This document shows, one piece after another, positions 1 to 37,810 of a stretch of 57,156 bases of DNA (positions within the stretch are counted from its first letter, which is position 1; each line of letters starts with the position of its first letter). The translations under genes were made by a program, and so were the position numbers. This DNA is from a virus, in IMG/VR virus record IMGVR_UViG_3300036819_000112, positions 1 to 57,156 of that record. The stretch is one strand, 5' to 3'. The notes below the pieces were generated by a model, which did no database searches, was not told where the DNA came from, and was given only the letters and a program-made list of their open reading frames with translations.

Positions 1-127
1 ACCGCCATGAGCCGCGGCGACGGATCAGGCCTATGGCAGACCGAGAGGAATCTTTCGCGCCTGCGTGACGAATGGGCCAAGGGCACAAGCACCGCCGAAA
101 TCGGCCGGCTGCTCAGGGCGTCGAAAA
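1..127. repeat. Terminal direct repeat, left copy
   Basis: These 127 bases are identical to positions 57030-57156. An exact end overlap of this length is what a k-mer assembler leaves on a circular or circularly permuted molecule. The genome is therefore closed, and position 1 falls just before the GcrA-like gene by chance. A true physical terminal repeat is possible but less likely at exactly 127 bases. Confidence 0.95.
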
Positions 128-582
128 GTGCCATCGTCGGCAAGGCCGGGCGGCTTGACCTGCCAGGGCGGCCGTCGCCGATCAAGCGCGGCCCCGATCA
201 TATACCCGTGCCGATTTCCGAGCGGGAGCGCCAGAGAGCGATCCCGCAGACCACCCTGCCGCCGATCGCCTCCGAGGTGCCCGCACCGGAGGTGACGTCC
301 AGGGACGCCCCGACGCTGCCAGCCCCGATTTCGCCGCCGCCCGCGCCCCGCCCGGTGATCGCCGCGCCTGTTCCCCCAGCGATGCCGGCATCGGCCTTCA
401 GCGAAGACGACAGGACATGCCGCTGGCCGATCACCGAACGCCCGTACCGGTACTGCGATCAGCCCACCTTTGGGCGGCTGGCCTTTTGCGAGAAGCACGC
501 CGGCAAAGCCTACCAGACCGAGGGGTGGCGACAACGGGCGAACGCCGGTCCACCGGCGCATGCATCTGGGGGAGGTGATTGA
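7..582 (+). CDS. gcrA: GcrA-family cell-cycle regulator homologue
   Basis: GcrA proteins bind sigma70 RNA polymerase and activate promoters carrying methylated GANTC in Alphaproteobacteria. Residues 10-55 form the N-terminal DNA-binding helical domain: a tryptophan start (LWQTERNLSRLRDEW) followed by TAEIGRLLRASKSAIVGKAGRL, whose AIVGK segment is the family signature. A proline-rich linker (about 60-130) leads to a cysteine-rich C-terminus with CRWPITERPYRYCDQP and CEKHAGKAY, as in host GcrA. Length (191 aa) is normal. It lies in the right early operon: its ATG overlaps the stop of the preceding gene (57036-57039 in the duplicated end), and its stop overlaps the next gene, whose Shine-Dalgarno (568-575) lies inside it. 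Family assignment is firm; its targets are unknown. Confidence 0.9.
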   Translation: MSRGDGSGLWQTERNLSRLRDEWAKGTSTAEIGRLLRASKSAIVGKAGRLDLPGRPSPIKRGPDHIPVPISERERQRAIPQTTLPPIASEVPAPEVTSRDAPTLPAPISPPPAPRPVIAAPVPPAMPASAFSEDDRTCRWPITERPYRYCDQPTFGRLAFCEKHAGKAYQTEGWRQRANAGPPAHASGGGD

Positions 583-1886
583 TGTCCTGGGCAATGGAGC
601 TCTCCCCGGCCGGGTTTGACGGCATGTTTGCCGACCTCGCGATGATGGATCGCAAGACCGGTCGGGCCTACCTCCAGCTGCTCGGCTACCTCCGGCGCTT
701 CGGCTCAGTCCCGTCCGGAGAGCGCGCGCTTGCCAGCGTGCTGGGGGTGACGGTCGGGTTCCTTCGCGAAGTCGCCTGGCCGCTGCTGGAAGACCGCCTG
801 GAGCTTTCGGCGGACGGACGGCGGTATTCCGATCCCGACGTTACAGCGAGCCGGCCGCGGCGCCCGGTCCGTGAGCCAACGGACGATCGGATCAAAAATC
901 AGCAGCAGCAGGATGCCGCCAAAGCCAGATGGGCGAAGCAACGCGCCGCCGGGGAGCCGCTACAAACAGATGCGCAGGCGCATCCTGAAACGCATGCGGA
1001 GCGCATGCGATCTGATGCGGAAACGCATGTGATTTCAATGCGCGGCGCATCGGAAATGCATGCGGAAACGCATTCCACTGATGCGCCCAGCGCATCGTCG
1101 AGCGCATCCGGCGCATATGCGCTCGCGCATGCGCGCGCTCTCTCTCCCTCTGATACTTCTCTTGCTGAATCCCCTGATAATTGGAGAGATTCTTTGGGAG
1201 AGAGAGAGGACGCGCTCATGCGCAGCGATGCGTCGGCGCATGCGGAGCGCATGCGATCTGATGCGTCCGCGCATGCGTCAAGCGATGCGCCCGCCCCCGA
1301 AGCGCATCGTGCATCGGGACGCAAACAGCAGCCGCCGAGTCGCCCGAGTATCCCAATCCCACCGGACTGGAGGCCGACACCGGAGGACGCGTTGGCTGCT
1401 CGGGGCCGGGGCTACGATCCTGACGAACTCGCGCAAGGCTTCCTCGACTGGTATCTCGGCCGAGACGAGGTCAGCCCTGACTGGAATGCGAAGTTCCGCA
1501 CATGGATGCGGCGGGAGAAGAGTCCTCCCAACAGCAATCTCCAGCAGGGCACCATCAAGCTGCCGATCGAGGGCGGCGTTTCTGACGAGGCAGATGATCC
1601 CGCCGCGGCCGTGGGGGATGGCGTGGAGGCGCAATGGGTTCGCGCATCGCGCCAGCTCAAAGCTGAAATCGGCCCTGTCCCGTACCGGACCTGGATGTCG
1701 AAGGCCGCCATCGTCGGGATAGAGGATGGCGAGGCCACAATCAGCCTGCCCTCGACGTTCCTGCGCGACTATGTCCGCACCAATTTCCTCGATCGGCTGA
1801 CGGCATTCTGGCGGGCGGACAATCCCACGGTCCTGCGGGTCCAGGCTGTGGTGGCATCCGTTGAACGTCGGACGGCAGGTGGCTGA
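582..1886 (+). CDS. Replication initiator-like protein with C-terminal DnaA-N-like domain
   Basis: 434 aa. The ATG at 582 has a GGGGGAGG ribosome site six bases upstream; the TTG at 579 is less likely. Residues 1-85 resemble the winged-helix N-terminus of phage replication proteins (DUF1376 type). Residues about 128-244 are low-complexity (Ala/Ser/His/Met/Arg) and are encoded by the ATGCG repeat array. Residues 260-310 (PPDWRPTPEDALAARG, then FLDWYLGRD...WNAKFRTWMRRE) match a segment common in phage O/DnaT-like proteins. The last about 80 residues (WVRASRQLKAEIGPVPYRTW ... LPSTFLRDYVRTNFLDRL) match the DnaA N-terminal domain, which in host DnaA contacts the helicase DnaB. No ATPase motifs are seen. 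The likely role is to bind the internal origin and recruit host helicase; this is inference. Confidence 0.75.
   Translation: MSWAMELSPAGFDGMFADLAMMDRKTGRAYLQLLGYLRRFGSVPSGERALASVLGVTVGFLREVAWPLLEDRLELSADGRRYSDPDVTASRPRRPVREPTDDRIKNQQQQDAAKARWAKQRAAGEPLQTDAQAHPETHAERMRSDAETHVISMRGASEMHAETHSTDAPSASSSASGAYALAHARALSPSDTSLAESPDNWRDSLGEREDALMRSDASAHAERMRSDASAHASSDAPAPEAHRASGRKQQPPSRPSIPIPPDWRPTPEDALAARGRGYDPDELAQGFLDWYLGRDEVSPDWNAKFRTWMRREKSPPNSNLQQGTIKLPIEGGVSDEADDPAAAVGDGVEAQWVRASRQLKAEIGPVPYRTWMSKAAIVGIEDGEATISLPSTFLRDYVRTNFLDRLTAFWRADNPTVLRVQAVVASVERRTAGG
964..1310. repeat. ATGCG/CGCAT iteron array, candidate replication origin
   Basis: I count about 30 copies of ATGCG or its complement CGCAT between 970 and 1307, many fused as GCATGC palindromes and mostly spaced 9-14 bp, close to one helical turn. 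A 29-bp block at 991-1019 recurs exactly at 1237-1265. Copies stop between 1134 and 1217, where an AT-richer segment lies. Iterons inside the initiator gene resemble the lambda O/ori arrangement. Confidence 0.75.
1138..1206. other. AT-richer island bounded by an 11-bp inverted repeat, candidate unwinding element
   Basis: The arm CTCTCTCTCCC (1138-1148) is the exact reverse complement of GGGAGAGAGAG (1196-1206). The 47 bp between are much AT-richer than the surroundings and free of ATGCG motifs, which flank it on both sides. Iterons flanking an easily melted segment is the normal architecture of a theta origin. The function is inferred. Confidence 0.55.
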
Positions 1887-1928
1887 TGGCCCTCGCAGGA
1901 TACCTCCCCGACCCCGAGGCAGCCTGAG

Positions 1929-2264
1929 ATGTCCGCGCTCGCCCGCCTGCCGGAACCATGCCCGCGTCGGACGGCCCGTGTAGGCAGGCGTCCAGTAATC
2001 GTCGGTGCGGCCCTCGCACCTCCGGTGGCTGGCCAGATCGACCTGGGGACAGCGGTGCGCGTCTCGCTCTCCGGCAGTCACCGGACGTCGCTGATGTGCG
2101 AGGAGGGTGTGGTGATCGAGGTGGTGGAACCCGCGACGGACGTGCGAGCGGCCCGGGTCTTTCACCACCCCGAGCGGCTCTCCGTAGAGCGGCGCTACGT
2201 CGTGCAGTGCTGGTCCCGCCGGGTGCTGCGCCACGCGGCTCATATGGTCGTGGTCTCGCCGTGA
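1929..2264 (+). CDS. Small hypothetical early protein
   Basis: 111 aa, basic, no family recognised. The C-terminal half (GTAVRVSLSGS ... YVVQCWSRRVLRHAAHMVVVSP) reads like a small beta-rich domain. Its stop overlaps the GTG start of the next gene (2261), which supports this frame over the competing one. Confidence 0.5.
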   Translation: MSALARLPEPCPRRTARVGRRPVIVGAALAPPVAGQIDLGTAVRVSLSGSHRTSLMCEEGVVIEVVEPATDVRAARVFHHPERLSVERRYVVQCWSRRVLRHAAHMVVVSP

Positions 2265-2584
2265 CGGGTGACGCCAGACCGTACTGGACTGTCAGGGTGG
2301 GTCACGTCGCTCCTCTGGCGCCTGCCTGGTTGCGCGGGTTCGTGGTCTCGATGCTCGCCGATCCGCGCTCTGACAGCGACACGCTGCTGCGCCTGACGGA
2401 TGCGCTGGAAGAGGCCGCAGAGGAGGCGCTGACGGTGGGCCGGCCGGCGCTGGCGAGGGATCTGCGCGCATTGGCCGATGAGGCTCGCGCGCTGGCGCCG
2501 GATCGGGTCCTGGATGGCCTGCCGATGGCCGCCGGGGAAGCAAAGGGTGACCGCGAACGGGGCGGGAGGCTCCAACGCCAGTAA
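2261..2584 (+). CDS. Small hypothetical helical protein, GTG start
   Basis: 107 aa from GTG 2261, overlapping the previous stop as GTGA. Residues 27-75 (LADPRSDSDTLLRLTDALEE...) form a strongly helical, acidic segment, followed by an arginine-rich tail. The frame is open further upstream, but there it runs antiparallel to the better supported previous gene. No function can be assigned. Confidence 0.5.
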   Translation: MTGDARPYWTVRVGHVAPLAPAWLRGFVVSMLADPRSDSDTLLRLTDALEEAAEEALTVGRPALARDLRALADEARALAPDRVLDGLPMAAGEAKGDRERGGRLQRQ

Positions 2585-3030
2585 GAAAAGACCTGCGCCC
2601 GCTCTATCCGCCGGACTGGCCAGAGATCAGCCAGCGCATCCGCTTCGACGTCGCCCAGGGTCGCTGCATGCGCTGCCGCCGCCCGCATCTCACCCGCATC
2701 CTCTGCCTGCCGGATGGCCGATGGGAAGATTTTGACCAGAGGTGTTGGTACGATGGGGACGGAGCCATGGTCCCCGCGCCTTCCGTGCTGGAGGTCGATC
2801 GCAGCGGCCATGTCACCCGGGTGGTGCTGGCCACGGCCCATCGCGACCATGATCCCGCCAACAGCGACGATCCAAACTTCGCCGCCTGGTGCCAGCGCTG
2901 TCATCTCCTGCACGACGCCGCCCATCATCGGGCACAGCGCCAGATCACACTCCGGCTTCGGTGGGCGATCGGGGACCTGTTCTCGGGCCTTTACTCGCTG
3001 GCCGGATATCCCAGGAACGGGGCGCCATGA
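2551..3030 (+). CDS. HNH-endonuclease-like protein with unclear start
   Basis: The frame encodes RPLYPPDWPEISQRIRFD, then CMRC, then a central TAHRDHDP and CQRCHLLHDAAHH. This is the zinc-binding HNH arrangement seen in small phage HNH proteins that nick or cut DNA. Conserved coding begins near 2593, but no ATG, GTG or TTG exists between the upstream stop (2548-2550) and ATG 2668. Starting at 2668 would remove the first cysteine of CMRC. A good GTG start exists at 2547 in another frame (VTANGAGGSNASKK), and a +1 shift at the AAGAAAAG run near 2583-2590 would join the two. So this is a translational shift, an unusual start, or a one-base lesion or assembly error. Its 3' end overlaps the Dam-type gene as ATGA. 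Confidence 0.6.
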   Translation, partial: PRTGREAPTPVRKDLRPLYPPDWPEISQRIRFDVAQGRCMRCRRPHLTRILCLPDGRWEDFDQRCWYDGDGAMVPAPSVLEVDRSGHVTRVVLATAHRDHDPANSDDPNFAAWCQRCHLLHDAAHHRAQRQITLRLRWAIGDLFSGLYSLAGYPRNGAP

Positions 3031-3881
3031 CCGGGCCATCACGGCCGCTGCTGCGCTGGCATGGTGGAAAGTGGCGCTTGGCTCCGTGGATCGTAGCGCA
3101 CCTTCCCCGCCATCGTGTTTACGTCGAGCCGTTCGGTGGCGCGGCGAGCGTCTTGCTCCGCAAACCCCGCTCCTATGCTGAAATCTACAACGACCTCGAC
3201 GGCGATGTGGTGAATCTGTTCCAGGTCCTGCGGTCCGGTCGCGCCGGCGAACTCGTCCGGGCTTTGGAGTTGACGCCGTTCGCAAGAGCCGAATTCGAGG
3301 GTGCCTACGAACGATCCGATGATCCGGTGGAGGAGGCTCGTAGCCTCATCGTGCGCTCATTCATGGGGTTCGGTTCCGACGGGTTCAACCGAGCCGTGCG
3401 AACCGGGTTTCGATCGACGTCCAATCGGAGCGGCACCACGCCGGCGCACGATTGGGCGAATTACCCCACGGCGCTACGGGCGATCATTAAGCGCCTGAAC
3501 GGGGTGGTCATCGAGCGGCGGCCGGCGCTGCAGGTGATGCTTCAACACAACGATGTAGACGCCCTGCACTACCTCGACCCACCCTATATGCCGGAAACCC
3601 GGTCGGAGAAGAGCCGCAAGACGGGCGAGCGCTATCATGCCTACGCGCACGAGATGACGCCGGCCGATCATGCAGCGCTGCTGGCTAGCCTTCCGAACAT
3701 CCGTGGTGCCGTGGTCATCAGCGGGTACGCAACTCGGCTCTACGACGAGGCGCTGGTGGGCTGGCGGCGGCTGACGATCGCGGCGCTGGCGGACGGTGCG
3801 GCAAAACGAACCGAGGTGCTTTGGCTCAATCCCAGAGCAGCAGATCAAATCGCAGGCGAGTTGGAGTTCGGCTCGCCATGA
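3027..3881 (+). CDS. D12-class (Dam-like) adenine-N6 DNA methyltransferase
   Basis: 284 aa, normal for the alpha-group D12 family that methylates adenine. Residues 6-12 (LLRWHGGK) and 34-47 (YVEPFGGAASVLLRK) are the SAM-binding motifs. NDLDGDVVNLFQVLR follows, and the catalytic DPPY motif is in YLDPPYMPETRSEKS. The ATG at 3027 overlaps the HNH stop, and the 3' end overlaps the next gene as ATGA, so it is translated within the early operon. With no partner nuclease it is probably an orphan methylase, protecting phage DNA or altering host methylation-sensitive promoters. Its recognition site cannot be read from sequence. Confidence 0.9.
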   Translation: MTGPSRPLLRWHGGKWRLAPWIVAHLPRHRVYVEPFGGAASVLLRKPRSYAEIYNDLDGDVVNLFQVLRSGRAGELVRALELTPFARAEFEGAYERSDDPVEEARSLIVRSFMGFGSDGFNRAVRTGFRSTSNRSGTTPAHDWANYPTALRAIIKRLNGVVIERRPALQVMLQHNDVDALHYLDPPYMPETRSEKSRKTGERYHAYAHEMTPADHAALLASLPNIRGAVVISGYATRLYDEALVGWRRLTIAALADGAAKRTEVLWLNPRAADQIAGELEFGSP

Positions 3882-4060
3882 AAAAAGCCGATCGCATCGC
3901 CGCTGAACAGGCGCTGTATCGGAAGCGGATGGCTGAACTCGCCGCCTGGAAACTGACGCAACCGTGCAAAAACAGCGGCAATGTCCAGGTTCGCGGCGAT
4001 GGCGGGTGCCTGCGGTGCGATGCCGACGCCGGCGAGGTATGCCGTGATGGCGCGCCATGA
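3878..4060 (+). CDS. Small cysteine-containing hypothetical protein
   Basis: 60 aa. A basic helical N-terminus (MKKADRIAAEQALYRKRMAEL) is followed by a four-cysteine segment (PCKNSG...GGCLRCDADAGEVC) that could bind zinc. ATGA overlaps at both ends tie it to the methylase and the next gene. Confidence 0.65.
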   Translation: MKKADRIAAEQALYRKRMAELAAWKLTQPCKNSGNVQVRGDGGCLRCDADAGEVCRDGAP

Positions 4061-4263
4061 GTCGAAGTTGGCCACTCGACGAAGAGTGCTGCACCGGGAT
4101 GGATGTGCCGATTGACCCTTGGACCGCGGAAGACGTCGCGTTCTGGACGGCAACCCCGACTTATCAGCCATGGAAAGACGTAGCGGCGCTATTCGGGGCG
4201 GAGATGGAGCGGACATCCGCTGCTGCTCGGGCGTTGGGCGCCAATCTGACGGAGAAGGGTTGA
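4057..4263 (+). CDS. Small hypothetical protein, possible DNA-binding
   Basis: 68 aa. PWTAEDVAFWTATPTYQPWKDVAALFGAEMERT resembles a short Myb/GcrA-type helical domain in which an enzyme-like helix pair precedes a recognition helix. Both ends overlap neighbouring genes by a few bases. Confidence 0.6.
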   Translation: MSRSWPLDEECCTGMDVPIDPWTAEDVAFWTATPTYQPWKDVAALFGAEMERTSAAARALGANLTEKG

Positions 4264-4628
4264 TGACCCCCATCGCCAAGGAGGAGATGCTCGCGCTCCG
4301 CGAAGACCGCGGCTGGTCGTACGCCAGGATCGCGGCGACTTACGGAGTGTCGCCGGCGGTGGTCTCCTACCATTGCCTGATTGCGGGGGCCGAGAAGCCG
4401 GGGCCATTCCCGAGATCGTATGTGCGCCCGGGCGCCATAGAGCAGCGCGGCAACCATGTCGTCCGCCGTTTCACCCCTGACGAAGATGCGCTGATCCTGG
4501 CGCTATCGCTGAGGGGTATGAGCAACGGGGCGATCGGCCGCTCGTGCTCACCGCGCCGCCGCCCCAACTCGATCAAAGGGCGACTCGCGACACTGGCCCG
4601 CCGGGAAGCTCGGGCGGAGGCAGGCTGA
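4263..4628 (+). CDS. Putative DNA-binding protein with two helix-turn-helix segments
   Basis: 121 aa. Residues 7-37 (EMLALREDRGWSYARIAATYG then VSPAVVSYHC) form a resolvase/sigma-like helix-turn-helix. A second segment (FTPDEDALILALSLRGMSNG then PNSIKGRLATLARRE) resembles a Myb/SANT or GcrA-like DNA-binding domain. The ATG overlaps the previous stop. It is probably an early transcription regulator; targets are unknown. Confidence 0.65.
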   Translation: MTPIAKEEMLALREDRGWSYARIAATYGVSPAVVSYHCLIAGAEKPGPFPRSYVRPGAIEQRGNHVVRRFTPDEDALILALSLRGMSNGAIGRSCSPRRRPNSIKGRLATLARREARAEAG

Positions 4629-4835
4629 ATGGACGCCATAGGCGAAGCCCAGAGGAGGATGGAGACGGTCTGGACCGCTGCTCGCCTGGCTGACAGGTGC
4701 TACGACGAGCGGCTCTCCGATGCCCACGGCCTGACGCGGGCCGAATACGTCGGCAAAGCCGTGGTGGCGGCGCTCTATGCCGATATCGGCAACGGCCGGC
4801 CGCCCAACGCCCGCGCGGTGGATGAGGGGAGATGA
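4629..4835 (+). CDS. Small hypothetical early protein
   Basis: 68 aa, helical, no recognised family. The ATG directly follows the previous TGA and the stop overlaps the next start, so it is part of the operon. Confidence 0.55.
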   Translation: MDAIGEAQRRMETVWTAARLADRCYDERLSDAHGLTRAEYVGKAVVAALYADIGNGRPPNARAVDEGR

Positions 4836-5425
4836 CGATGCACACGAAGGACTTTCTGGCCCAAGAGCTACGTAAGGCTGGCCTGAGCGCGATGGCCGAC
4901 AAGGCAGCGACCGGGTACTACCACGACTACCTCTCACCTCTCGATCTGCCCTGCCAGCAACTCGCGCACGACCTTAAAACCTTCGCCAACGCGCCGTCGC
5001 TGTCCGCGCCGCGCCGACACGAAGTGCAGACGTTGTTGGCGCGGCACATGAACGGGGAATTTGACGCCAGCAAGGAAGAGTCGGAGGCCTGGGCCTCAAG
5101 CGATGAAGGCAAAGAGACCTTCGGCAAGCTGACCGAACAGCAGCCGCCGGAGACTGAGGGGAAAGAGCGGATTGGGCGGCTGGCGATGCGCCACGAAGGC
5201 GAGTTCTGGAACGCCTACTACGCGTTGCCGCAAAGCATGGATCGGGCGGTCTTGATCGGATCGATCCACATGAAGTTCGTCGAGAAAGAGGGGCGCAAGC
5301 AGGCCTTCATGGACCTCATGCGTGAGTGTGCGGCTGACATCATCGAGGCGGCGATCGGCCAGCGGCCCATCTGGCCAAGGGGACCCGAACCGGCGCCGGA
5401 GCACGAGCGCTCGGGGCACGCATGA
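4832..5425 (+). CDS. Hypothetical early protein
   Basis: 197 aa, soluble and mostly helical; ATG 4832 or 4838 could start it. Residues 1-55 contain DFLAQELRKAGLSAMADKAA and a tyrosine-rich YYHDYLSPLDLPCQQL. Residues 60-90 resemble small phage proteins of unknown function. No catalytic motif is visible. Confidence 0.65.
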   Translation: MTMHTKDFLAQELRKAGLSAMADKAATGYYHDYLSPLDLPCQQLAHDLKTFANAPSLSAPRRHEVQTLLARHMNGEFDASKEESEAWASSDEGKETFGKLTEQQPPETEGKERIGRLAMRHEGEFWNAYYALPQSMDRAVLIGSIHMKFVEKEGRKQAFMDLMRECAADIIEAAIGQRPIWPRGPEPAPEHERSGHA

Positions 5426-5636: not shown

Positions 5637-5851
5637 GCACCTGGCCCAAGCCTACCTGGGAGCCGCTCTGGCTGCGCTGCGGACCGTGCGGCCACGAATG
5701 GGACGACTGGCAGCCATGCCATGTTCCGATCCTGACCTGGACGGCTCATGTCCAGGCGCTGCGCTGCCCGAAGTGCCGAGCAAGGCGGAAGCTGTTCATG
5801 CGTATGACGCCGCTCACAGAGGCCACTACCCAGGCCGGCACGGGAGTCTAG
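5633..5851 (+). CDS. Small zinc-ribbon protein
   Basis: 72 aa. Two CxxC pairs (CGPCGHEW near residue 16 and CPKC near 46) make a complete four-cysteine zinc ribbon. It is the last gene of the right early operon; its end runs into the convergent gene at 5826. Confidence 0.6.
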   Translation: MSTWPKPTWEPLWLRCGPCGHEWDDWQPCHVPILTWTAHVQALRCPKCRARRKLFMRMTPLTEATTQAGTGV

Positions 5852-6254
5852 CGGAGCGGGGATCATCCGCCCTGCCAGAAGTTGAGAGAGCAATCGCGAA
5901 ACCGCACACCCGGCAGGTCACCACCCAAAGCCCGCATCTCGCCGCTGGGTAGGGCAGTTCGACGCGGCAGGCGTGCGGAGCGTCAAGGGCAACGTCGATC
6001 GCGCTGCCATTGGGGTAGGCCGAGTCTGCGGGATAGCTCGCTTCCCGATGCTGATCGACCCAATCCACCAGAAACCGCGATTCTGCGACCGGCGCACCAG
6101 GCTCCAGTGACACCGCGCTGAACGCGAGCGGCTGTCCGCGCTGCATCGTCCCAGCCTCAGCCCAGCAGCGCTCATTCTCAAATTCCGGATCGTCAGGTGC
6201 ACCGTCGAAGGCGTCGTCGTGCGGATCGTCAACTCGGTCGGCGGTGTTCTGCAT
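5826..6254 (-). CDS. Conserved-looking hypothetical protein with CxxC motif
   Basis: 142 aa from ATG 6254, preceded on this strand by a GGGGG-containing ribosome site. The acidic N-terminus (DDPHDDAFDGAPDDPEFENE) precedes a C-terminal domain with ELPYPAARCGLWVVTCRVCG, then GRADDPRSARLPCRPG, a pattern I associate with uncharacterised alphaproteobacterial phage proteins. It converges on the early operon and diverges from the late region. Confidence 0.6.
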   Translation of the reverse strand: MQNTADRVDDPHDDAFDGAPDDPEFENERCWAEAGTMQRGQPLAFSAVSLEPGAPVAESRFLVDWVDQHREASYPADSAYPNGSAIDVALDAPHACRVELPYPAARCGLWVVTCRVCGFAIALSTSGRADDPRSARLPCRPG

Positions 6255-6679
6255 GCCCCCGATTCTGCCATCGCGAGCGGTGCAGTGGCAACGCGTGGCG
6301 GAGGTGATTCCGCATGCGGATCGCCGATGGACGCGCATAGAATCACTGCACGTCTTCGCATGGAAACAACGGCTGATTGATGTGCGATTTGTCTGCAAAA
6401 ATCGATGCGAAAATTCTGGATAAATAGATACACATCGATGCCGATTTTGATGCGCAGAACGCATGCGCTGGCACACCCCGCCGCACCTCTGCCCATGTCT
6501 ATTTCCCAGGCACGATCCGGTGCTTTTCCGTCTCAGCGCTTGATCGCGGCGCGCGCATAGCGATACAAAGTCGTTGACTATTAGATCGAAACGGCGCTGC
6601 CATCGGCGCTAGAAGCCAACGTTAACGGGGCCGGTTCCCGACTTTGGAACCATGCGCGCCGTGCGGGAGCAATCCAGAC
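6255..6679. promoter_or_regulatory. AT-rich divergent control region with ATGCG and GANTC sites
   Basis: No gene lies in these 425 bp. Eight ATGCG/CGCAT copies fall at 6311-6467, two more at 6554 and 6652, the same motif as in the initiator-gene array. The stretch 6361-6455 is clearly AT-rich. Three GANTC sites occur within 84 bp (6261, 6306, 6340). A TTGACT hexamer at 6574 could be a -35 element, but no convincing -10 follows at the right distance. It probably holds the promoters for the 5826 and 6680 genes and might be a second binding region for the initiator. Confidence 0.55.
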
Positions 6680-7339
6680 ATGGGTGACACTCATTCCGAT
6701 ATAGATCGGACCGCGGAGCCGTGGGAAATCGAAGGCATTAGCCGGCGCACCTGGTATCGGCGCTCTGCCGCCGAGTACAGAGACCTGAACACGAAGCGGG
6801 TCGAGCCGGCTGGTCCAAGGTGGTACTGCGGACGAACGGTGTATGGCGGCGAGCGGCAGGCCGCGGCAGAGTGTCGTTCGGCAGGCTTTGACGTGTTTGC
6901 GCCGACCATCTTCAAACCGGCCACGCGAGCCAGACGCAACGCCGTCGGCGCGATCATCCCCGCCCGCCCGGCCAGCGCGGTACCGCTGTTTCCGAACTAC
7001 ATCTTCTCCCGGTTTCGCGTGATCGATTACTGGCGGTATCGGGGCGATCTGCCGAGTGTGGCCGGCCTCCTCAGCCTCGCTCCCGACGCTCCTACTCCCA
7101 TGCCCGACCGCGCCATCAGCTTGATCCGAGGCATGTGCGGTGCCGACGACTGCTATCACGAGGACGGCGATACGCCGAACACCCTTGTCGGCGCTCTTCT
7201 GCGGCTGCTCAGCGGTCCGTTCAGTGGGTTCGAGGGCATCTGCGATTGGTCAGGGGACGGGAAGGCACGGATGCCGGTCACGTTCTGCGGCCGGCCGTGC
7301 CCTATTACCGTCGATCAGGAGATGGTGGAGGTGGTCTGA
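6680..7339 (+). CDS. NusG/RfaH-like transcription elongation factor, candidate late antiterminator
   Basis: 219 aa. After an N-terminal extension containing WYRRSAAEYRDLNTKR, residues about 45-110 match the NusG N-terminal domain (RWYCGRTVYGGERQAAAECR, FDVFAPTIFKP, PLFPNYIFSRFRV), which binds the RNA polymerase clamp. Residues about 168-219 (VGALLRLLSGPFSGFEGICD ... MPVTFCGRPCPITVDQEMVEVV) match the KOW domain. Specialised NusG paralogues (RfaH, LoaP) keep RNA polymerase elongating through long operons. This gene heads a roughly 33-kb mostly same-strand late region, so it could replace a Q-type antiterminator. ATG 6680 is preferred over TTG 6644 for its GGGAG ribosome site. No ops-like recruiting element was identified. 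Confidence 0.75.
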   Translation: MGDTHSDIDRTAEPWEIEGISRRTWYRRSAAEYRDLNTKRVEPAGPRWYCGRTVYGGERQAAAECRSAGFDVFAPTIFKPATRARRNAVGAIIPARPASAVPLFPNYIFSRFRVIDYWRYRGDLPSVAGLLSLAPDAPTPMPDRAISLIRGMCGADDCYHEDGDTPNTLVGALLRLLSGPFSGFEGICDWSGDGKARMPVTFCGRPCPITVDQEMVEVV

Positions 7340-7358
7340 AGCGACGGAAAACCGCCAT

Positions 7359-7406
7359 TTGTCAGAGGGTGATAAGAAATATTATCTCCTATTGATATCC
7401 GGAGAT
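7359..7406 (+). promoter_or_regulatory. Putative promoter and inverted repeat before the recombinase
   Basis: In an AT-rich gap, TTGTCA (7359-7364) is followed after 15 bp by TATTAT (7380-7385). ATCTCC (7384-7389) and GGAGAT (7401-7406) form an inverted repeat just before the start codon that could be an operator or a translation-control hairpin. Confidence 0.4.
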
Positions 7407-7414
7407 CAGTAGCC

Positions 7415-8341
7415 ATGACCAGCGCCCTAGCAGTGCCTGTACGCTCGTCACCTCCCGCTCAGCGGCTGGATACAACCGATGACGCGATGGTTGCACTCTG
7501 GCTTGGGAGATACACCCGTTCGGCTCACACCAGGCGCAGCTACAAAGCGGACGTGGATGCATTCCGCGCTTTTGTCGCCAAACCATTGCCCACGGTCACC
7601 GGGAGCGACATCAATGCATTTGCGTCGAGCCTCGGCCACCTGGCGCCCGCGTCGCAGAGTCGCCGACTGTCGGCAGTCAAGTCGCTGATCGGACTGCTGC
7701 ACCGCCAGGGCCTGATGCCCTTCGATGTCGCCGCGGCGATCCAGCTCCCAGCGATCAAGGACACCTTGATCGAGCGGATCATGACGGAGGAGGCGGTGCA
7801 GCGCCTGCTCTGGGCGGCCGAGGCGCCGCCGCGGTTCTCCCGGATAAACAATCGCACAACGCGATGGGCCAAGCGCAACGCGGCGCTGTTGCGGTTGCTT
7901 TATGGTGCTGGTTTGCGAATCAGCGAGGCGTGCGGCTTGTGCTGGCGCGATCTAACGCCCCGTGATCAGGCCGGCCAGCTGAACGTGCTGGGCAAAGGCG
8001 GCAAGACGCGCCCGGTGCTGCTGACCAAATCACTTTGGGACCGACTCGCCGAGTTGCGAGGCAGTGCCGGCCCGGGCGATTCAGTTTTCAAGTCGCGCGA
8101 AGGTGGCGCATTGGCACCATCGCAGGTCGATCGGATTATGAAAACTGCGGTAAAACGCGCCCAACTACCGCCGGCGGTGTCAGCTCACTGGCTCCGGCAC
8201 GCCCACGCAAGTCATGCCCTCGATCGCGGCGCTCCGGTACATGTCGTGCAAACGACGCTCGGCCATGCGTCGCTGACCACGACCACTCGTTACACTCATG
8301 CGCGGCCTGGCGACAGTAGCGCTAAGTATCTCACGGCATAG
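7415..8341 (+). CDS. XerC/XerD-like tyrosine recombinase
   Basis: 308 aa, normal for Xer proteins. The N-terminal SAM-like core-binding domain (residues 20-110) precedes the catalytic domain. Catalytic residues are visible: Arg in GAGLRISEACGL, Lys in GKGGKTRPV, HWLRHAHASH, GHASLTTTTRYTH with the nucleophilic tyrosine. It lies second in the late region, far from the phage-type integrase at 43843. It may resolve genome multimers or act on a dif-like site; the role is inferred. Confidence 0.85.
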   Translation: MTSALAVPVRSSPPAQRLDTTDDAMVALWLGRYTRSAHTRRSYKADVDAFRAFVAKPLPTVTGSDINAFASSLGHLAPASQSRRLSAVKSLIGLLHRQGLMPFDVAAAIQLPAIKDTLIERIMTEEAVQRLLWAAEAPPRFSRINNRTTRWAKRNAALLRLLYGAGLRISEACGLCWRDLTPRDQAGQLNVLGKGGKTRPVLLTKSLWDRLAELRGSAGPGDSVFKSREGGALAPSQVDRIMKTAVKRAQLPPAVSAHWLRHAHASHALDRGAPVHVVQTTLGHASLTTTTRYTHARPGDSSAKYLTA

Positions 8342-8350: not shown

Positions 8351-9961
8351 GTGGCAGCAGGCTTCAAGACAGGCGGTCGAGTGAAAGGTTCCCTCGACAA
8401 AGGACCGAGGAAGCGGAGGTCCTCTGTGTCTGTAGATGCACATGTCACTACCAGAGTAGTGGCAGCGGGGGCGGGGGCGCCCCCCACCGCGCCCATTATT
8501 CCAGCCTCGCGCCCGGGCGCGCGCGCGAGGACGTCACTGAAAGCCGCTGCAGCGGCCGGTTTGCCGCCACCAGAGGCCGGTTCCATTCTTCCCGTCTCGC
8601 AAGCGGCGGCGGACCCGTCGTTCCCGAAATACCGCACCATGGCAACCGACAAGTTGGTGCCCTACGCGAACAATGCCCGTACCCATTCGAAGGCGCAGAT
8701 TGCCAAGATAGCCGCCAGCATTAAGGAGTTTGGCTTCACCAACCCCGTCCTCACTGACGGCAAGCGTGGCATCATCGCCGGTCACGGCCGAGTCCTTGCG
8801 GCACAGATGCTGGACATGGTCTCGGTGCCGATAATCGAGCTGTCCCACCTGAGCGTGGCCCAGCGGCGAGCTTACATTCTTGCGGACAACCGACTAGCGC
8901 TTGACGCTGGATGGGACGATGAACTGCTGGCGCTTGAGCTCGGTGCGTTGCGCGCTGATGGCTTTGACCTCTCGCTTACCGGTTTTGATTTCAACGAGAT
9001 CGGAATGCTGCTTGGCTCATCGGAGGGTCTTACCGATCCTGACGACGCACCGCCGGCCCCGTCGCAGCCCGTATCGATTGCGGGCGATGTGTGGCTGCTC
9101 GGCGGGCACAGGCTGGCCTGTGGGGACTCTACGGATGCGCGGGTGGTCGCGGCTGCGCTGGGCGGCGCGAAGCCGCATTTGATGGTCACTGATCCGCCCT
9201 ATGGCGTGGGCTACGACGCGAACTGGCGAAATGAGCGCGTGCGGCAGGACGGTTCTCCCGTGGGTGGGCGAGCTGTCGGTAAAGTGGCGAACGACGGGGA
9301 TGCCGACTGGCGCGAGGCGTGGGCGCTGTTTCCCGGCTCGGTCGCTTATGTCTGGCATGCCGGCCTTCATGGAGAGCAGGTGATCAGCAGCCTGGTGGCG
9401 AACGGCTTCAGGATTCGAGCGCAGATCATCTGGGTCAAGACTCGTGCGGTGATCTCGCGGGGTCACTACCATTGGCAGCATGAACCTGCGCTCTACAGCG
9501 TACGCGAGGGGGAAGACGATCAGTGGCGCTTCGTCCCCGAGCACGAGGTGGTCGATTACTCTGTCCGCGAGGGCGAAACCGGGCAATGGCAAGGCGGCCG
9601 CAAGCAGTCGACCGTTTGGAACATTGAGCACATCAAATCCGAAACCGGCCACAGCACCCAGAAGCCGGTCGAGTGCATGCGGCGTCCTATCGAAAACAAT
9701 TCATCTCCCGGGCATGCGGTCTACGACCCCTTCGCCGGCTCCGGTACCACCATCATAGCCGCTGAGATGACCGGCCGCGCCTGCCATGCGATCGAACTCA
9801 GCCCCGCCTATGTCGACGTCGCTATTCTCCGTTGGCAGGCGTTCACCGGCAAAGATGCTGTCCATGGCGAAGACGGACGCACTTTTGCCTCCATCGGTCT
9901 CGAACGGAGCGTACCTCCGCAAGCCGCCCGCACCCGGACCCGCGTCAAGGTTGAAGCGTAG
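8351..9961 (+). CDS. ParB/Srx-like domain fused to beta-group DNA methyltransferase
   Basis: 536 aa. After about 95 disordered residues, residues 96-215 form a ParB/Srx-type domain (KLVPYANNARTHSKAQIAKI, GIIAGHGRVLAAQML, RRAYILADNRLAL). Residues about 230-520 are a DNA methylase with DPPYGVGYDANW before DPFAGSGTTIIAAEMTGR. Catalytic motif before SAM motif defines the beta group, and DPPY suggests adenine-N6 (SPPY would suggest cytosine-N4). The region between is the target-recognition domain. Such ParB-methylase fusions are frequent in prophages next to terminase genes, as here. The translation start is uncertain; GTG 8351 has an open upstream. Confidence 0.88.
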   Translation: MAAGFKTGGRVKGSLDKGPRKRRSSVSVDAHVTTRVVAAGAGAPPTAPIIPASRPGARARTSLKAAAAAGLPPPEAGSILPVSQAAADPSFPKYRTMATDKLVPYANNARTHSKAQIAKIAASIKEFGFTNPVLTDGKRGIIAGHGRVLAAQMLDMVSVPIIELSHLSVAQRRAYILADNRLALDAGWDDELLALELGALRADGFDLSLTGFDFNEIGMLLGSSEGLTDPDDAPPAPSQPVSIAGDVWLLGGHRLACGDSTDARVVAAALGGAKPHLMVTDPPYGVGYDANWRNERVRQDGSPVGGRAVGKVANDGDADWREAWALFPGSVAYVWHAGLHGEQVISSLVANGFRIRAQIIWVKTRAVISRGHYHWQHEPALYSVREGEDDQWRFVPEHEVVDYSVREGETGQWQGGRKQSTVWNIEHIKSETGHSTQKPVECMRRPIENNSSPGHAVYDPFAGSGTTIIAAEMTGRACHAIELSPAYVDVAILRWQAFTGKDAVHGEDGRTFASIGLERSVPPQAARTRTRVKVEA

Positions 9962-10456: not shown

Positions 10457-10933
10457 ATGGCGGGGCGAAAGGCTTTCGTGCCGACCGATGAGCAGCGCGC
10501 CCGGGTGCGATCCATGGCCTCCGCCGGCATCGATGAAGGCACGTCCGGAAACGGCAGGAACGGTGGCGCGACGTTGGCGGAAATCTGCGCGGTCATCGAC
10601 GTCAGTGAAAAGACGCTGCGGCGGGCGTTCAAAACCGAGCTGAAGACAGCGTTCTATCTTGCGAAAGACCAGATGCGTCGGAGCCTGTTCCAGCAGGGCA
10701 CCGGGCAACAAGAGCGACCGGAGGAGCGAGACGAGCGTGGCAGGGTAATCCGTCCGCGGCAGCGATACGTCCCACCCAACCCTACCGCGACGATCGCCTG
10801 GCTGGAGTTCTACGGCGGCGCGGTGAAAACCCAACGCACGGAACACACCGGCCAGGTCAACACACGGAACCTTACGGATGAACAGCGCGACGCTCGAATC
10901 GCTGAGCTCCTCCGTAAAGCAGGAGCTGCTTGA
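10457..10933 (+). CDS. terS: Small terminase subunit (putative)
   Basis: 158 aa, the usual length for TerS. A helix-turn-helix lies at residues about 35-60 (ATLAEICAVIDVSEKTLRRAF), followed by a helical oligomerisation region and a charged C-terminus that would contact the large subunit. The gene overlaps terL by 56 bp. TerS selects the packaging site; no cos or pac site could be recognised. Confidence 0.75.
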   Translation: MAGRKAFVPTDEQRARVRSMASAGIDEGTSGNGRNGGATLAEICAVIDVSEKTLRRAFKTELKTAFYLAKDQMRRSLFQQGTGQQERPEERDERGRVIRPRQRYVPPNPTATIAWLEFYGGAVKTQRTEHTGQVNTRNLTDEQRDARIAELLRKAGAA

Positions 10934-12389
10934 GCTACTTGAAGAAAGGCACCGTGCGCTCTGCCGGCGCAGCTTTCTGGCCTGGTGCATCGAAGCCTTG
11001 GCGCCGTTCGGGCAGACCCCCGCGGCGCACCATCGTCTGCTGATCTCCGAACTGCAGGCGGTCGCCGATGGGCTATGCGACCGGCTGATGATCTTCATGC
11101 CGCCGGGTTCGGCGAAATCACGCTACGCGACGGTGCTGTTTTCCGCCTGGCTGTTGTCGCGCCGGCCGAACTTCCAACTGATCGGAGCAAGCCACACCTC
11201 GGAACTGGCGGACGATTTCTCCGGCAAGATCCATGCAATCGTCAGCGAGAACACTGCAACGCTCGGCTATGGCTTGGCCAAGAAGGCGGTCGGACGATGG
11301 TATACGACGAACGGCGGGGCCTATCTCGCGGCGGGCGTGCGGGCTGGTATCCCCGGCTTCCGTGCTGATGCCGCGATCATCGACGATCCGGTGAAGGGGC
11401 GCGCCGCAGCCGACTCCGCGCCGGACCGCAAGCAGGTCTGGGACTGGTACAACGGAGACCTGGAGCGGCGGCTAACTCCGCGGTCATCCGTCGTGCTCAT
11501 GCAGACCAGATGGCACGAAGATGACCTGGCCGGGCGGCTGCTGGAGACCGAGGGGCATCGCTGGCGGGTGCTGAGGCTACCGGCAGAGGCAGAAGCGAAC
11601 GACCCGCTTGGCCGTCAGCCGGGCGAATGGCTGTGGTCGGACGGCACCTATGGGTTCGGCCAAGGCCTTGCTCAGATCAAGCAGTCGCTCTCCGAACGCG
11701 GCGCCAGCCGCGAGTGGACAGCGCAATACCAGCAACGACCGGTTCCCGAGACCGGCGACTACTTCCAGCGCGACTGGTTGCGTTCTGTCCCGAGTTTGCC
11801 GCCGCGCACTGCCCTGCGCGTGTTCGGCGCGTCGGACTATGCCGTGACCGACGATGGCGGGGATTTCACGGTGCATATCGTGGTCGGGGTCGATAGCGAC
11901 GATCGGCTCTACGTGCTGGATCTCTGGCGCCAGCAGACGGCGTCGGATCAGTGGGTCGAGGCGTTCTGCGACATGGTGGTGCGCTGGAAACCGATGGGCT
12001 GGGCCGAAGAGGCGGGGCAGATTCGTGCCGGCATTGGGCCCTGGCTGAACCGGAGATCACGCGAGCGGCGGGCGTTCGTGGCCAGACAGACATTTCCGAC
12101 GCGAGGCGGCGACAAAAGTGTGCGCGCGCAGAGCATTCGCGGGCGGGCTGCGCTGAGCGGGATCTATGTCGCAGCCGACGCGCCCTGGCGAGCCGACTTT
12201 GAAGCGGAGCTGCTGTCGTTTCCGGCCGGTAAGCATGACGACCAGGTCGACGCGCTTGGCCTGATCGGCCAGTTGCTTGATGTCATGCTGCCACCGCCCG
12301 GAGCGAAACCGCCGGCGCCTCCGGCGGATAGTTGGGACCGGGCATTCCGGCGCGGCGATGATTCTGGCGACGGCTGGAAAGTGACGTAG
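10878..12389 (+). CDS. terL: Large terminase subunit
   Basis: 503 aa. The ATPase domain has Walker A MPPGSAKS (residues 74-81) and Walker B AAIIDDP with the acidic pair at 169-170, then the coupling segment MQTRWHEDD. The C-terminal RNase-H-like nuclease has GASDYAVTDDGGDF and later HDDQVDALGLI, supplying metal-binding aspartates. This motor translocates DNA into the procapsid and cuts it. The 56-bp overlap with terS and the portal gene 11 bp downstream are the normal packaging order. Confidence 0.95.
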   Translation: MNSATLESLSSSVKQELLELLEERHRALCRRSFLAWCIEALAPFGQTPAAHHRLLISELQAVADGLCDRLMIFMPPGSAKSRYATVLFSAWLLSRRPNFQLIGASHTSELADDFSGKIHAIVSENTATLGYGLAKKAVGRWYTTNGGAYLAAGVRAGIPGFRADAAIIDDPVKGRAAADSAPDRKQVWDWYNGDLERRLTPRSSVVLMQTRWHEDDLAGRLLETEGHRWRVLRLPAEAEANDPLGRQPGEWLWSDGTYGFGQGLAQIKQSLSERGASREWTAQYQQRPVPETGDYFQRDWLRSVPSLPPRTALRVFGASDYAVTDDGGDFTVHIVVGVDSDDRLYVLDLWRQQTASDQWVEAFCDMVVRWKPMGWAEEAGQIRAGIGPWLNRRSRERRAFVARQTFPTRGGDKSVRAQSIRGRAALSGIYVAADAPWRADFEAELLSFPAGKHDDQVDALGLIGQLLDVMLPPPGAKPPAPPADSWDRAFRRGDDSGDGWKVT

Positions 12390-12400: not shown

Positions 12401-14431
12401 TTGAGCGATCTGATGTCCCTGGCCACGCCGCAAGGTCCGACCATTGATGCGCAGCAAGGCTGGCCGGGCGACCTCGACGCGCTTCTGGCGCGGCTGATCC
12501 GCGATTTCCAGGAGGCCGAGGAAGCTACCGCCGATGCACGGGCTGAGGCCGAGCGGTCCCGGGATTTCCGCGACGGCCGCCAGTGGACCGCGGAAGAGGC
12601 CGCGATTCTTCGCAAGCGGCGCCAGCCGATCGTCTGGAACAACATCATCGGGCGCAAGATCGAGTTGCTGCGGGGGCTGGAGCGCCGCGGCAGGTCCGAT
12701 CCCGAGGCCTACCCGAGAAATCCGGTGAACAATGTCCGTGCCGACGCCGCAACCCAGGCGCTGCGCTACATCGCCGACGAGAACCGCTTCGACGTCATCC
12801 GCAGCGCCGTCTACGACCAGATGCTGGTCGAGGGGTTCTCCGGAGCCGAGGTGATCGTCGAGGAACAGCAGGACGGCGACGGCTATGACGTCGTCATCAA
12901 CCACATTCCGTGGGAGCGGCTGTACTACGATCCACATTCCCAGCATCCGGCGTTCACCGATGCCAGCTATCTGGGGATGGTGATCTGGATGGATTTCGAC
13001 GATGCCGCCGATATGTATCCGGGCTGTGAAGACATCCTGGATTCAACCCTCGAAAGCGCCCGCTCGGACACCTATGGCGACAAGCCCATCGCAACCTGGG
13101 GCGATCGAAAGCGGCGCAGGGTCCGCGTCGCACAGCATTGGTGGAAGAAGCGGCGCGACTGGTGGACCGCGACTTTCACCAAAGGCGGGTTTCTCGGCGC
13201 GCCGATGTTGTCGCCCTACAAAGACCGCCACGGCAATGCGACCTGCCCGATCATCCTTCGCTCCGCGCGGATCGACCGCGACAACAACCGGTTCGGCATC
13301 GTGCGTGACCTGGTGCCGTTACAGGAAAGCATCAACAAGCGCGAAAGCAAGCTGCTGCATTCGCTTTCGGTCAATCAGATCATCATGGAGGAAGGCGCGG
13401 TCGACGACGTCGACCACGTCCGCGCGGAGGCTGCCAAGCCGGACGGCGTGATGATCCACAACAAGGATTTCGAGTTCAAGCTGCAGAAGGACCAGGCGGA
13501 GATCCAGGGCCAGTTCGAGTTGCTCCAGTACTCCGTGGCTCAGATGCAGATGCACGGCCCCAACGCGGCGATGAGCGGCAAGGATCCGCGGGAGCAGTCG
13601 GGCAGGGCCATTATCGCCCAGCAGTCCGGCGGCCAGGTCGAGAACGAGCCCATGGCCGATGCGCTGCGGCAGTGGACGCACAAGATTTACGAGGCCGCCT
13701 GGATGCGGGTGCGGCAGTTCTGGACCGGGCCGCGCTGGATCCGGGTGACCGACAGCGACAAGAACACCCAGTTCGTCGGCTTGAACCGGCCGGTGACGAT
13801 CGCCGATCTGCTTGGCCAACTCGACCGGACGCAGCCAATCGATTCACAACTGAAGGGTTTGGATCCAGGTGACGCGGCGGCCGTGCAGTTCGGCCTGCAG
13901 CTTCCGCCGGGCGACCCGCGGCTGCAGATGGCGGTGCGGATCGAGAACGACATCGGCGATATGGACTGCTCGATCACGGTGGAAGAGGGGCCGGACAACC
14001 CCACGATGCAGGCGGAGCAGTTCCAGACCATCATGCAACTGCCGCCGCAGATCCTGATGCAGTTTCCGCCCGAGTTCATCATCCAGGCCTCGGCGCTGCG
14101 CAACAAGGACCAGCTGATCAAGCTCCTGGAGCAACACCAGCAAAGCCAGGCGCAGGCTGCGGAGGCGGCCAAGGCCAATCAAACGGCGATGCAAACGGCT
14201 CAGGTCGCAAAAACCCAGGCCGATGCGGCTGACAAGCGCGCTCAGGCGCTGCAGCGCATGCACGGCATCGCGGCCGATCATGCGGGGATGCCGGGGCAGG
14301 ACGCGCAGCAGGCGGCCGATGTCGCGAATACCCAAGCTGGGACCCTGGAGATGATGCACGGCATGGCGATGGATCACGCCGCCGCGCAACAGCCTCCGGT
14401 CAATCCGCTGTCAGAGCCATCCCCCCCTTAA
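12401..14431 (+). CDS. P22-like portal protein
   Basis: 676 aa, close to P22 gp1 (725 aa). TTG 12401 is preferred because AGGGGG lies seven bases upstream; ATG 12413 is an alternative. Diagnostic segments are RKRRQPIVWNNI, RRGRSDPEAYPRNP, HIPWERLYYDPHSQHP, and a long helical stretch with SGRAIIAQQSGGQ. The C-terminal 100 residues are a Gln/Ala/Met-rich coiled coil, comparable to the P22 portal barrel. The dodecameric ring is the DNA channel and the docking site for terminase and the tail. Confidence 0.9.
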   Translation: MSDLMSLATPQGPTIDAQQGWPGDLDALLARLIRDFQEAEEATADARAEAERSRDFRDGRQWTAEEAAILRKRRQPIVWNNIIGRKIELLRGLERRGRSDPEAYPRNPVNNVRADAATQALRYIADENRFDVIRSAVYDQMLVEGFSGAEVIVEEQQDGDGYDVVINHIPWERLYYDPHSQHPAFTDASYLGMVIWMDFDDAADMYPGCEDILDSTLESARSDTYGDKPIATWGDRKRRRVRVAQHWWKKRRDWWTATFTKGGFLGAPMLSPYKDRHGNATCPIILRSARIDRDNNRFGIVRDLVPLQESINKRESKLLHSLSVNQIIMEEGAVDDVDHVRAEAAKPDGVMIHNKDFEFKLQKDQAEIQGQFELLQYSVAQMQMHGPNAAMSGKDPREQSGRAIIAQQSGGQVENEPMADALRQWTHKIYEAAWMRVRQFWTGPRWIRVTDSDKNTQFVGLNRPVTIADLLGQLDRTQPIDSQLKGLDPGDAAAVQFGLQLPPGDPRLQMAVRIENDIGDMDCSITVEEGPDNPTMQAEQFQTIMQLPPQILMQFPPEFIIQASALRNKDQLIKLLEQHQQSQAQAAEAAKANQTAMQTAQVAKTQADAADKRAQALQRMHGIAADHAGMPGQDAQQAADVANTQAGTLEMMHGMAMDHAAAQQPPVNPLSEPSPP

Positions 14432-15893: not shown

Positions 15894-16425
15894 GTAATTC
15901 AAAGCGGGCGAACGCGCCGTGGAGGCGCGTGGCTGCTTCGCAATACGCGGCATGGGCCAGTTGCTGGGTCGGGAACAGACCGAGGTTACTTTTCCGGCCG
16001 CTAACCCAAATCTCGGCAGACCAAGCCGCTCGTCTGGTGTTCCAATGAACGCCCTTCAACCCGCTGTTGTTGTCGCAACGGACGCGCATGTTCATTTTAT
16101 TTTGGGATGATGTGGCCGCTCTAAGGTTCCGCCAACGGGTGTTGCCGGGATCGTTGTCGATGTGATCAATTTCAAACGGAGGCCACGCGCCGGTCATCCA
16201 GAGCCACGCTAGGCGGTGGGCATGATATAGCCAACCGTTTACCGCGATTTGGATGTAGCCTCGGTTGGTCACGCTTCCAGCTACCCGGCCAGCGTTGCGG
16301 GTGTTCCATTCTCGTCTGGCATTTGGCCTATATCGCCAAGTGAATAAGCCGGCCTGTGGATCATAGTCTAGCGCCGCACGAAGTTGGTCCGCCGTCAGCG
16401 GATCGTCTACACGAGGTTTAACCAT
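15844..16425 (-). CDS. HNH homing endonuclease with AP2 DNA-binding domain
   Basis: 193 aa from ATG 16425, with GGGAGC upstream on this strand. Residues about 65-115 carry the HNH core (YHAHRLAWLWMTG, FEIDHIDNDPGNTRWRNLRA), and residues about 118-172 an AP2-like domain (NNSGLKGVHWNTRRAAWSAE). It is inserted antisense between scaffold and capsid genes and its 3' end overlaps the scaffold end by 50 bp. This is the profile of a free-standing homing endonuclease that copies itself into phages lacking it. Confidence 0.88.
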   Translation of the reverse strand: MVKPRVDDPLTADQLRAALDYDPQAGLFTWRYRPNARREWNTRNAGRVAGSVTNRGYIQIAVNGWLYHAHRLAWLWMTGAWPPFEIDHIDNDPGNTRWRNLRAATSSQNKMNMRVRCDNNSGLKGVHWNTRRAAWSAEIWVSGRKSNLGLFPTQQLAHAAYCEAATRLHGAFARFELPTSVDAPGCRRNSPPR

Positions 16426-16696
16426 GATCTGCTCCCGAGCAGTGATTGGTAAGAGGTCCGGATCGCTGTTTCCGCAGCGCCGGGCCTCGCCATCGATACC
16501 ACCATTTGTCGCCGCTCGCAGGCCGTTTCGGTCTCGCGGCTTCACGTTTTCACCTGCCGCCGAGGGCCGCAAGGCAACGGGCGATCTAGCCTCCCGGAAG
16601 TCGGACTCGGGGACCGAACATCGTCGCCGGATGGGTTTTGCCGGGCGTTTCGCAATACACCGCCCCCTCTTACTCCATCAGGAAGGATATCGTGCT
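16426..16696. other. Leader before the capsid gene
   Basis: A 271-bp gap between the divergent endonuclease and the capsid gene. The capsid frame stays open through it, but coding quality is poor. I saw no clear promoter; AGGAAGG just before 16697 is the capsid ribosome site. Confidence 0.4.
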
Positions 16697-17806
16697 ATGG
16701 CCGATATGAATATCACTTCGGCACGGGCCGGCTTAACGCCGACCCTGTGGGACAAGATGTTTTTCGCCGAATACATCAGGGCGAACCGGTTCAAGAAGTA
16801 CATGGGAACCGACGAAAATTCTATGATACAAATCAAGGACAGCTTGACCACCAAAAACGGTGACAGCGTGAATTTCGCCGCCGTCCGCCGCCTTGTGGGT
16901 GCCGGGGTCACTGGCAATACCGTGCTTGAGGGCAACGAAGAAATCCTCGACCAGCGCTCGATGAAACTGGCCGTAGCCCCGATTCGCCATGCGGTGGCGG
17001 TCTCCGACTGGGATGAGCAGAAATCGACCATCGAGCTACGGGACGCGGCGAAAACCGCGCTCAAAAACTGGTCGATGGAAAAGCTGCGCAACGACATCAT
17101 CATCTCGCTGTCGAGTGTCGGCGGCATCCCGTACGCCACCGCCACCTCGACGCAGCGCAACCTTTGGCTCGCGAGCAACTCCGACCGCGTCCGGTTCGGC
17201 GCCGCGGCGGCGAACTTCTCCTCCGGCGTCATGGCCACCGCGCTGGCAACGCTCGACAACACCGCCGACAAGATGACCGGAGCGTTCCTGTCGCTGTGCA
17301 AGCGTCAGGCGCAGACCGCGTCGCCGCATATCCGCCCGATCATGACCAACGACACCAACGACGAAGAGTGGTTTGTCGCTTTCCTGCCGTCGCTGGTGTT
17401 CCGCGATTTCAGGAACGACCCGGCGGTGCTGGCGGCCAACAAGGACGCTCGCCCGCGGGAGACCAGGTGGATGGACAATCCCATGTTCTCCGGCGGCGAC
17501 ATGGTCTGGGACGGGATCATTGTGCGGGAAATCCCCGAACTGCCGGTCCTGACCGGTGTCGGAACCGCCGGGATCGATGCGGCGGCCTCGTTCCTCTGCG
17601 GTGCCCAAGCGGTTGGCGCGGCCTGGGCGCAACGTCTCCGCACGACGACCAATGTCCGCGACTACGGCTACTTCCACGGTGTCGGTATTCAGGAGATGAG
17701 GGGCGTGGGCAAATTGCAGTTCGGCCGCGACGCAGCAGTGGATACGACCACAGAAGTCGATCAAGGGGTGTTCACGATGTTCACCGCGGCAGTGGCGGAC
17801 GTTTAA
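16697..17806 (+). CDS. Major capsid protein, N4-gp56 family
   Basis: 369 aa from ATG 16697 with AGGAAGG eight bases upstream; in-frame codons upstream are not capsid-like. The N-terminus (TSARAGLTPTLWDKMFFAEY then RANRFKKYMG) and DSVNFAAVRRLVGAGVTGN are the family signature of the N4 gp56 type HK97-fold capsid. No cleavable delta domain is apparent. Combination with a P22-like portal and tail set is a mosaic. Confidence 0.9.
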   Translation: MADMNITSARAGLTPTLWDKMFFAEYIRANRFKKYMGTDENSMIQIKDSLTTKNGDSVNFAAVRRLVGAGVTGNTVLEGNEEILDQRSMKLAVAPIRHAVAVSDWDEQKSTIELRDAAKTALKNWSMEKLRNDIIISLSSVGGIPYATATSTQRNLWLASNSDRVRFGAAAANFSSGVMATALATLDNTADKMTGAFLSLCKRQAQTASPHIRPIMTNDTNDEEWFVAFLPSLVFRDFRNDPAVLAANKDARPRETRWMDNPMFSGGDMVWDGIIVREIPELPVLTGVGTAGIDAAASFLCGAQAVGAAWAQRLRTTTNVRDYGYFHGVGIQEMRGVGKLQFGRDAAVDTTTEVDQGVFTMFTAAVADV

Positions 17807-37559: not shown

Positions 37560-37810
37560 TCCGCTCGGTTGCTCTGGTGATCGTGCTGGCAGGTTGTGCG
37601 GCGACGCCCGCGCCGCCGCCGCCAGTCCGGCCGGTCTGCCAGTGCCAGTGTCCGCCCTCCGTCGCCGTCCCGGCGCCGCTGTCGCGTGTGCATACCCTCG
37701 AACAGCTCAATGCATTCGCCATCGCCCTGGAAGTCGCGCGAGAGGCTGAGCGGGCGCGTGGGGATGCCTGTGCCCGGACCGTGCTCGAACTGCGAGGAAT
37801 GACCCCATGA
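37556..37810 (+). CDS. Small lipoprotein, candidate outer-membrane spanin
   Basis: 84 aa from TTG 37556, which overlaps the previous TGA and has AGGA just upstream. The lipobox LAGC (residues 10-13) is followed by a Pro-rich segment and a cysteine-rich stretch (CQCQCPP), then an amphipathic helix. Rz1 proteins are likewise short, Pro-rich lipoproteins. The pair with the upstream gene supports the spanin reading. Confidence 0.6.
   Translation: MIRSVALVIVLAGCAATPAPPPPVRPVCQCQCPPSVAVPAPLSRVHTLEQLNAFAIALEVAREAERARGDACARTVLELRGMTP

Follow-up and report, generated by a model that had tools for sequence, protein, structure and literature searches.

Organization of the locus

We first examined the gene content around position 6680 of the window, i.e., the whole stretch of DNA analyzed, a 57,156-base virus record. 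The following features were identified (comparison loci from related phages are denoted by L and a number):

5829-6254, minus strand: gene conserved upstream of NusG in L001 (64% identical) and L175, with matching DNA in L176
6574-6602, plus strand: promoter-like TTGACT-N17-CTGCCA, about 60 nt before the candidate pause, with a weak -10
6633-6651, plus strand: leader hairpin GGTTCC-CGACTTT-GGAACC, upstream of the NusG start codon
6652-6666, plus strand: candidate pause/recruitment site ATGCGCGCCGT|GCGG, 11 nt after the hairpin
6680-7339, plus strand: phage NusG paralogue (NGN domain aa 47-151, KOW aa 173-218)
7415-8341, plus strand: tyrosine recombinase (also following NusG in L175, L039 and L176; serine resolvase in L001)
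8351-9961, plus strand: ParB-like nuclease / DNA methyltransferase fusion
10457-10933, plus strand: terminase small subunit (TerS)
10878-12389, plus strand: terminase large subunit (TerL; phrog_38)
12401-14431, plus strand: portal protein
16424-17806, plus strand: major head protein (start codon uncertain)
24199-26019, plus strand: head closure protein Hc3 (start codon uncertain)
37807-38346, plus strand: endolysin
40120-40157, plus strand: strong intrinsic terminator (stem CGCCGGTCACC/GGTGGCCGGCG, then T5) ending the late region

The window has the gene set of a podovirus of the P22 plan, and all virion genes run on the plus strand behind NusG, up to the terminator at 40120-40157. The original prediction, that a NusG/RfaH-like protein heads a 33-kb region of mostly same-strand genes, was confirmed, with one correction: other plus-strand genes lie upstream (7-5425), so that NusG does not begin the whole same-strand run. 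It does begin a new transcription unit, because the minus-strand gene at 5829-6254 separates the two. No Q- or N-type protein was found among the roughly 28 window proteins scanned against Pfam and PHROGs. Moreover, the gene at 7-582 encodes a homologue of the GcrA cell-cycle regulator (PF07750, E 1.4e-14) and is followed by a protein with a DnaA N-terminal domain; a related gene opens the same region in L001. As the last gene of the record (56764-57039) and the GcrA-like first one are neighbours in L001 (45-332, then 329-796), the record ends probably join, which would make it a complete, circularly permuted genome although it is classed as linear. A second tyrosine recombinase is encoded at 43843-44877, and the replacement of the one after NusG by a serine resolvase in L001 suggests a role other than integration. 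The host is probably an alphaproteobacterium, judging by relatives.

The encoded protein belongs to the NusG family

The ORF at 6680-7339 (ATG to TGA) encodes 219 residues, and matches Pfam NusG (E 3.8e-9, aa 47-149), PHROG 6386 'transcription antiterminator' (E 3.4e-12, aa 42-216) and solved NusG chains over aa 85-217, KOW included (about 3e-7). An AlphaFold model built from 15 phage sequences gave an NGN domain (47-151) and a beta-barrel KOW (173-218) at pLDDT about 90, together with a poorly ordered N-terminus with a WEIEGISRRTWYRR helix, and the best Foldseek hits were NusG and RfaH. The N-termini of the paralogues in L001 (4139-4250), L175 (5868-5960) and L039 (1220-1290) carry repeats of GGARPNSGG, which are absent from the window protein. 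The protein scores far below the curated cut-offs for housekeeping NusG (12.6 against 135.7 bits), RfaH (22.3 against 144.5 bits), LoaP (16.3 against 125 bits) and UpxY (30.9 against 100 bits, the best score of the four NCBIfam models). In a maximum-likelihood tree, in which LoaP could not be included and one row entered in the wrong frame (L040) is ignored, it sits in a fully supported (100/100) clade of five phage proteins (L176, L175, L001, L039), apart from the RfaH clade and the housekeeping NusG clade.

NusG paralogues upstream of terminase genes in other phages

Direct searches with the window protein found one phage relative in IMG/VR and none among GenBank phages. We then decided to anchor the comparison on the terminase, and 80 IMG/VR loci were fetched by their terminase alone. 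Of the 57 with at least 2 kb upstream of TerL, 10 have a NusG paralogue there (two of these being weak hits), always on the TerL strand and 1.1-4.1 kb away, start to start. A second set of 28 loci, fetched by NusG, is followed by TerL genes of other families. In addition, the annotated phages Rivra, LagS-V1, yong2 and ppBjS10J-1 show NusG at the border between replication and terminase genes. A scan with the minus-strand neighbour gene found no new loci.

A noncoding element linked to NusG in a sister clade

K-mers shared after the NusG stop codon revealed, in one clade, a noncoding block composed of GCAAATCAG, about 20 nt, CGGCCGGT, a loop and TTTCACCCGCCGGGCGGCTTGTGTC, typically located 190-330 nt after the NusG stop and on its strand. 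The arms CGGC-C-GGT and ACC-C-GCCG pair, and compensated versions occur (GCC/GGC in L109, GAC/GTC in L127, TGC/GCA in L142 and L145), while L146 and L147 would add GCT/AGC if realigned by hand. Covariation exceeds all 500 shuffles and all slid controls. About 10 nt after the hairpin comes GGCTTGTG, a site (GGCTTGT|G) which fits the elemental pause consensus, usually given as G-11 G-10 ... T-3 G-2 Y-1 G+1. This is the geometry of a hairpin-stabilised pause. Variant elements, in which GGCTTGTG is replaced by ATTTTTGCG after CACCCGCCGGG, were observed in L136 (5338) and L138 (6719). Moreover, a small ORF of about 55 residues lies directly after NusG and before the element in L180 (1271-1435), and a small ORF is also annotated there in L118 (6609-6803).

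The exact pattern TCACCCGCCGGGNGGCTTGTG occurs 22 times in 2.9 million viral contigs, and of the 19 matches with room upstream, 18 have the NusG paralogue ending 81-314 nt before it. One copy, L159 (1463-1483), is a perfect one without NusG in the 1.4 kb upstream, behind a portal-like gene fragment and a GlsB-like gene. In 398 bacterial genomes the pattern occurs once, 229 nt after such a NusG gene, and among the 80 terminase loci the element is found in exactly the five with a NusG of this clade. As element and NusG are only about 250 nt apart, co-inheritance of neighbours may account for part of this linkage.

We then focused on the sequence that follows the element. Within 150 nt, an intrinsic terminator was found in 15 of 31 loci, against 2-7 in eight control windows of 27-31 loci, 2 on the reverse strand and 3-9 of 31 in shuffled sequence. 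A stricter hairpin rule over 350 nt gave 10 of 31 against 1-4 in shuffles, but 7 of 27 in one upstream control window. Pause hairpin, pause, terminator and late genes, in this order, is the layout of an antitermination leader.

The leader of the window's own phage group

The window lacks the sister-clade element. Instead, a differently placed counterpart (6633-6666) lies directly before the NusG start codon, and is conserved in L176 (65% identical NusG), L175 and L001: the hairpin is followed after 11 nt (10 in the others) by CGCCGTGCG, which is invariant in the four phages (a window-type leader can be written as a GGNTCC hairpin + CGCCGTGCGG). L001 has GGCTCC/GGAGCC, and L175 has GATT(T)CC/GGAATC if a bulge is allowed. 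The block lies upstream of the apparent start codons in the window, L175 and L176, whereas in L001 the start is uncertain. The candidate pause site is present once in the window. However, this counterpart rests on four sequences only, with one clean compensatory pair and covariation not beyond shuffles, and its single-sequence fold is not unusually stable, so this part is less certain than the sister clade and the covariation is suggestive only. The promoter-like sequence at 6574-6602, with a -35-like TTGACA at the same place in L175 and L176, was recognized by eye and was not listed by a consensus scan. Just after the NusG stop, CGACGGAAAACCGCCATTTG is conserved in three phages (window 7343-7361, L176 about 1308, L175 about 6525), and is possibly a weak hairpin signal.

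No leader terminator was found in the window. Within the 33-kb region, sigma-70-like promoters are no more frequent than chance, and terminator-like sites are only slightly, and not clearly, above shuffles (18 in 26-44 kb against 11.2 expected). Matches to the E. coli ops element with up to 2 mismatches were likewise not above chance, and none lies at the leader.

A possible late antiterminator built on a NusG paralogue

The original prediction had also proposed that the protein could be the processivity factor for late transcription. This interpretation is supported, as three of the checks suggested with it came out in favour: a shared ops-like element exists in related phages, phylogeny separates the protein from RfaH and from housekeeping NusG, and internal promoters are not enriched. 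Based on these results, we propose that the gene is a specialised NusG paralogue acting as the phage's late-gene antitermination and processivity factor, a reading to which we assign a probability of roughly two in three, as recruitment at the element, antitermination and late timing are inferred from sequence, without expression or binding data. In such a mechanism, host RNA polymerase would start at a late promoter just upstream and transcribe a short leader whose hairpin and consensus pause site stop it briefly, whereupon the phage NusG would load through its NGN domain, displace or exclude host NusG (and perhaps NusA), and keep the polymerase resistant to pausing and termination through the roughly 33-kb virion operon. 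In the window's group the element precedes the NusG gene itself, so the factor would also boost its own synthesis, as UpxY does. In the larger sister clade the element lies after NusG, and often a leader terminator stands between it and the terminase genes.

Other explanations were also considered. The position of the sister-clade element just upstream of the terminase genes, where cos sites are common, could indicate a packaging site (cos/pac) recognised by the terminase, with NusG as a mere neighbour; in fact, the record of the Microcystis phage yong2 ends 259 nt after its NusG gene, and some loci have HNH genes nearby. This is unlikely, however, as the element accompanies five TerL groups without BLAST similarity to one another, all TerL by PHROGs: L089 and L123 share 91% identical NusG with unrelated TerLs, and L118 and L124 90%, while L124 and L144 have 91% identical TerL but 42% identical NusG, and both carry the element. 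NusG plus element therefore stays together while the terminase is exchanged, although physical closeness alone would favour this to some degree. Moreover, terminase loci without this NusG clade lack the element, and a pause consensus and a downstream terminator are expected of a leader, not of cos.

It is also possible, but again unlikely, that the protein regulates host or early genes, as a NusG competitor or host-takeover factor, since NusG paralogues such as RfaH may compete with NusG for RNA polymerase; the conserved position at the head of the virion genes in many phages, the linked element at that place and its single copy in the window speak against it. Even less likely is a captured host exopolysaccharide or RfaH-type antiterminator riding along as cargo: the closest non-phage relatives found are alphaproteobacterial NusG paralogues at the head of polysaccharide operons, 25-28% identical, but the phage-only clade, the conserved synteny and leader, and the absence of polysaccharide genes from the window argue otherwise. 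Somewhat less doubtful is the possibility that late expression is switched on mainly by another factor, e.g., the GcrA-like regulator, with the NusG paralogue only fine-tuning elongation or translation coupling. In the Caulobacter GTA, activation by GafY and antitermination by GafZ are indeed separate layers (PMC11150451), but this reading does not explain the linked hairpin-pause elements and leader terminators.

Comparison with known antitermination systems

NusG paralogues with a dedicated target are known from capsule, LPS, antibiotic and conjugation operons, but we found no report of one as the late-gene antiterminator of a phage in a literature search that covered little of the subscription literature. 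It is rather more likely than not that a widespread, undescribed class of temperate phages controls late genes with a NusG paralogue recruited at a hairpin-stabilised pause in the late leader, a Q-like system evolved from a universal elongation factor, and a portable NusG-plus-element module that stays together while terminase and portal genes are exchanged. If right, this would add a route to phage late gene control beside Q, N and put, supply about 30 natural protein-element pairs in which NusG-paralogue recruitment is testable by covariation and swaps, and give a marker for late promoters in many phages of Alphaproteobacteria whose regulation is unknown.

RfaH is likewise a NusG paralogue, and its target operons carry a leader pause element (PMC6391919), with a similar pause consensus (ops GGCGGTAGCGTG, sister-clade element GGGCGGCTTGTG, window GCGCGCCGTGCGG). 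The protein studied here is phage-encoded and lies outside the RfaH clade, its KOW is a beta-barrel rather than an alpha-hairpin in the AlphaFold model (its free state being unknown), the element has an RNA-scale hairpin before the pause, and the proposed target is a virion operon. The sister type resembles LoaP from Bacillus, with leader hairpin, pause and intrinsic leader terminator (dfn/mln; PMC12691694), although LoaP recognises a UNCG hairpin and targets antibiotic operons. The window type resembles UpxY, encoded by the first gene of Bacteroides capsule operons and acting in the 5' leader upstream of its own gene (PMC7819879). Lambda-type Q, P. aeruginosa AlpA and GafZ are also placed between early and late genes; they have one target operon and read-through of an early terminator (GafZ: PMC11150451), but are unrelated proteins that load at promoter-spacer DNA elements rather than being NusG-family factors. 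In sister-clade loci, e.g., L125 (2858-2900), GCAAATCAG is conserved between a TGACA-like -35 and an AT-rich -10, the place where Q and GafZ binding elements lie.
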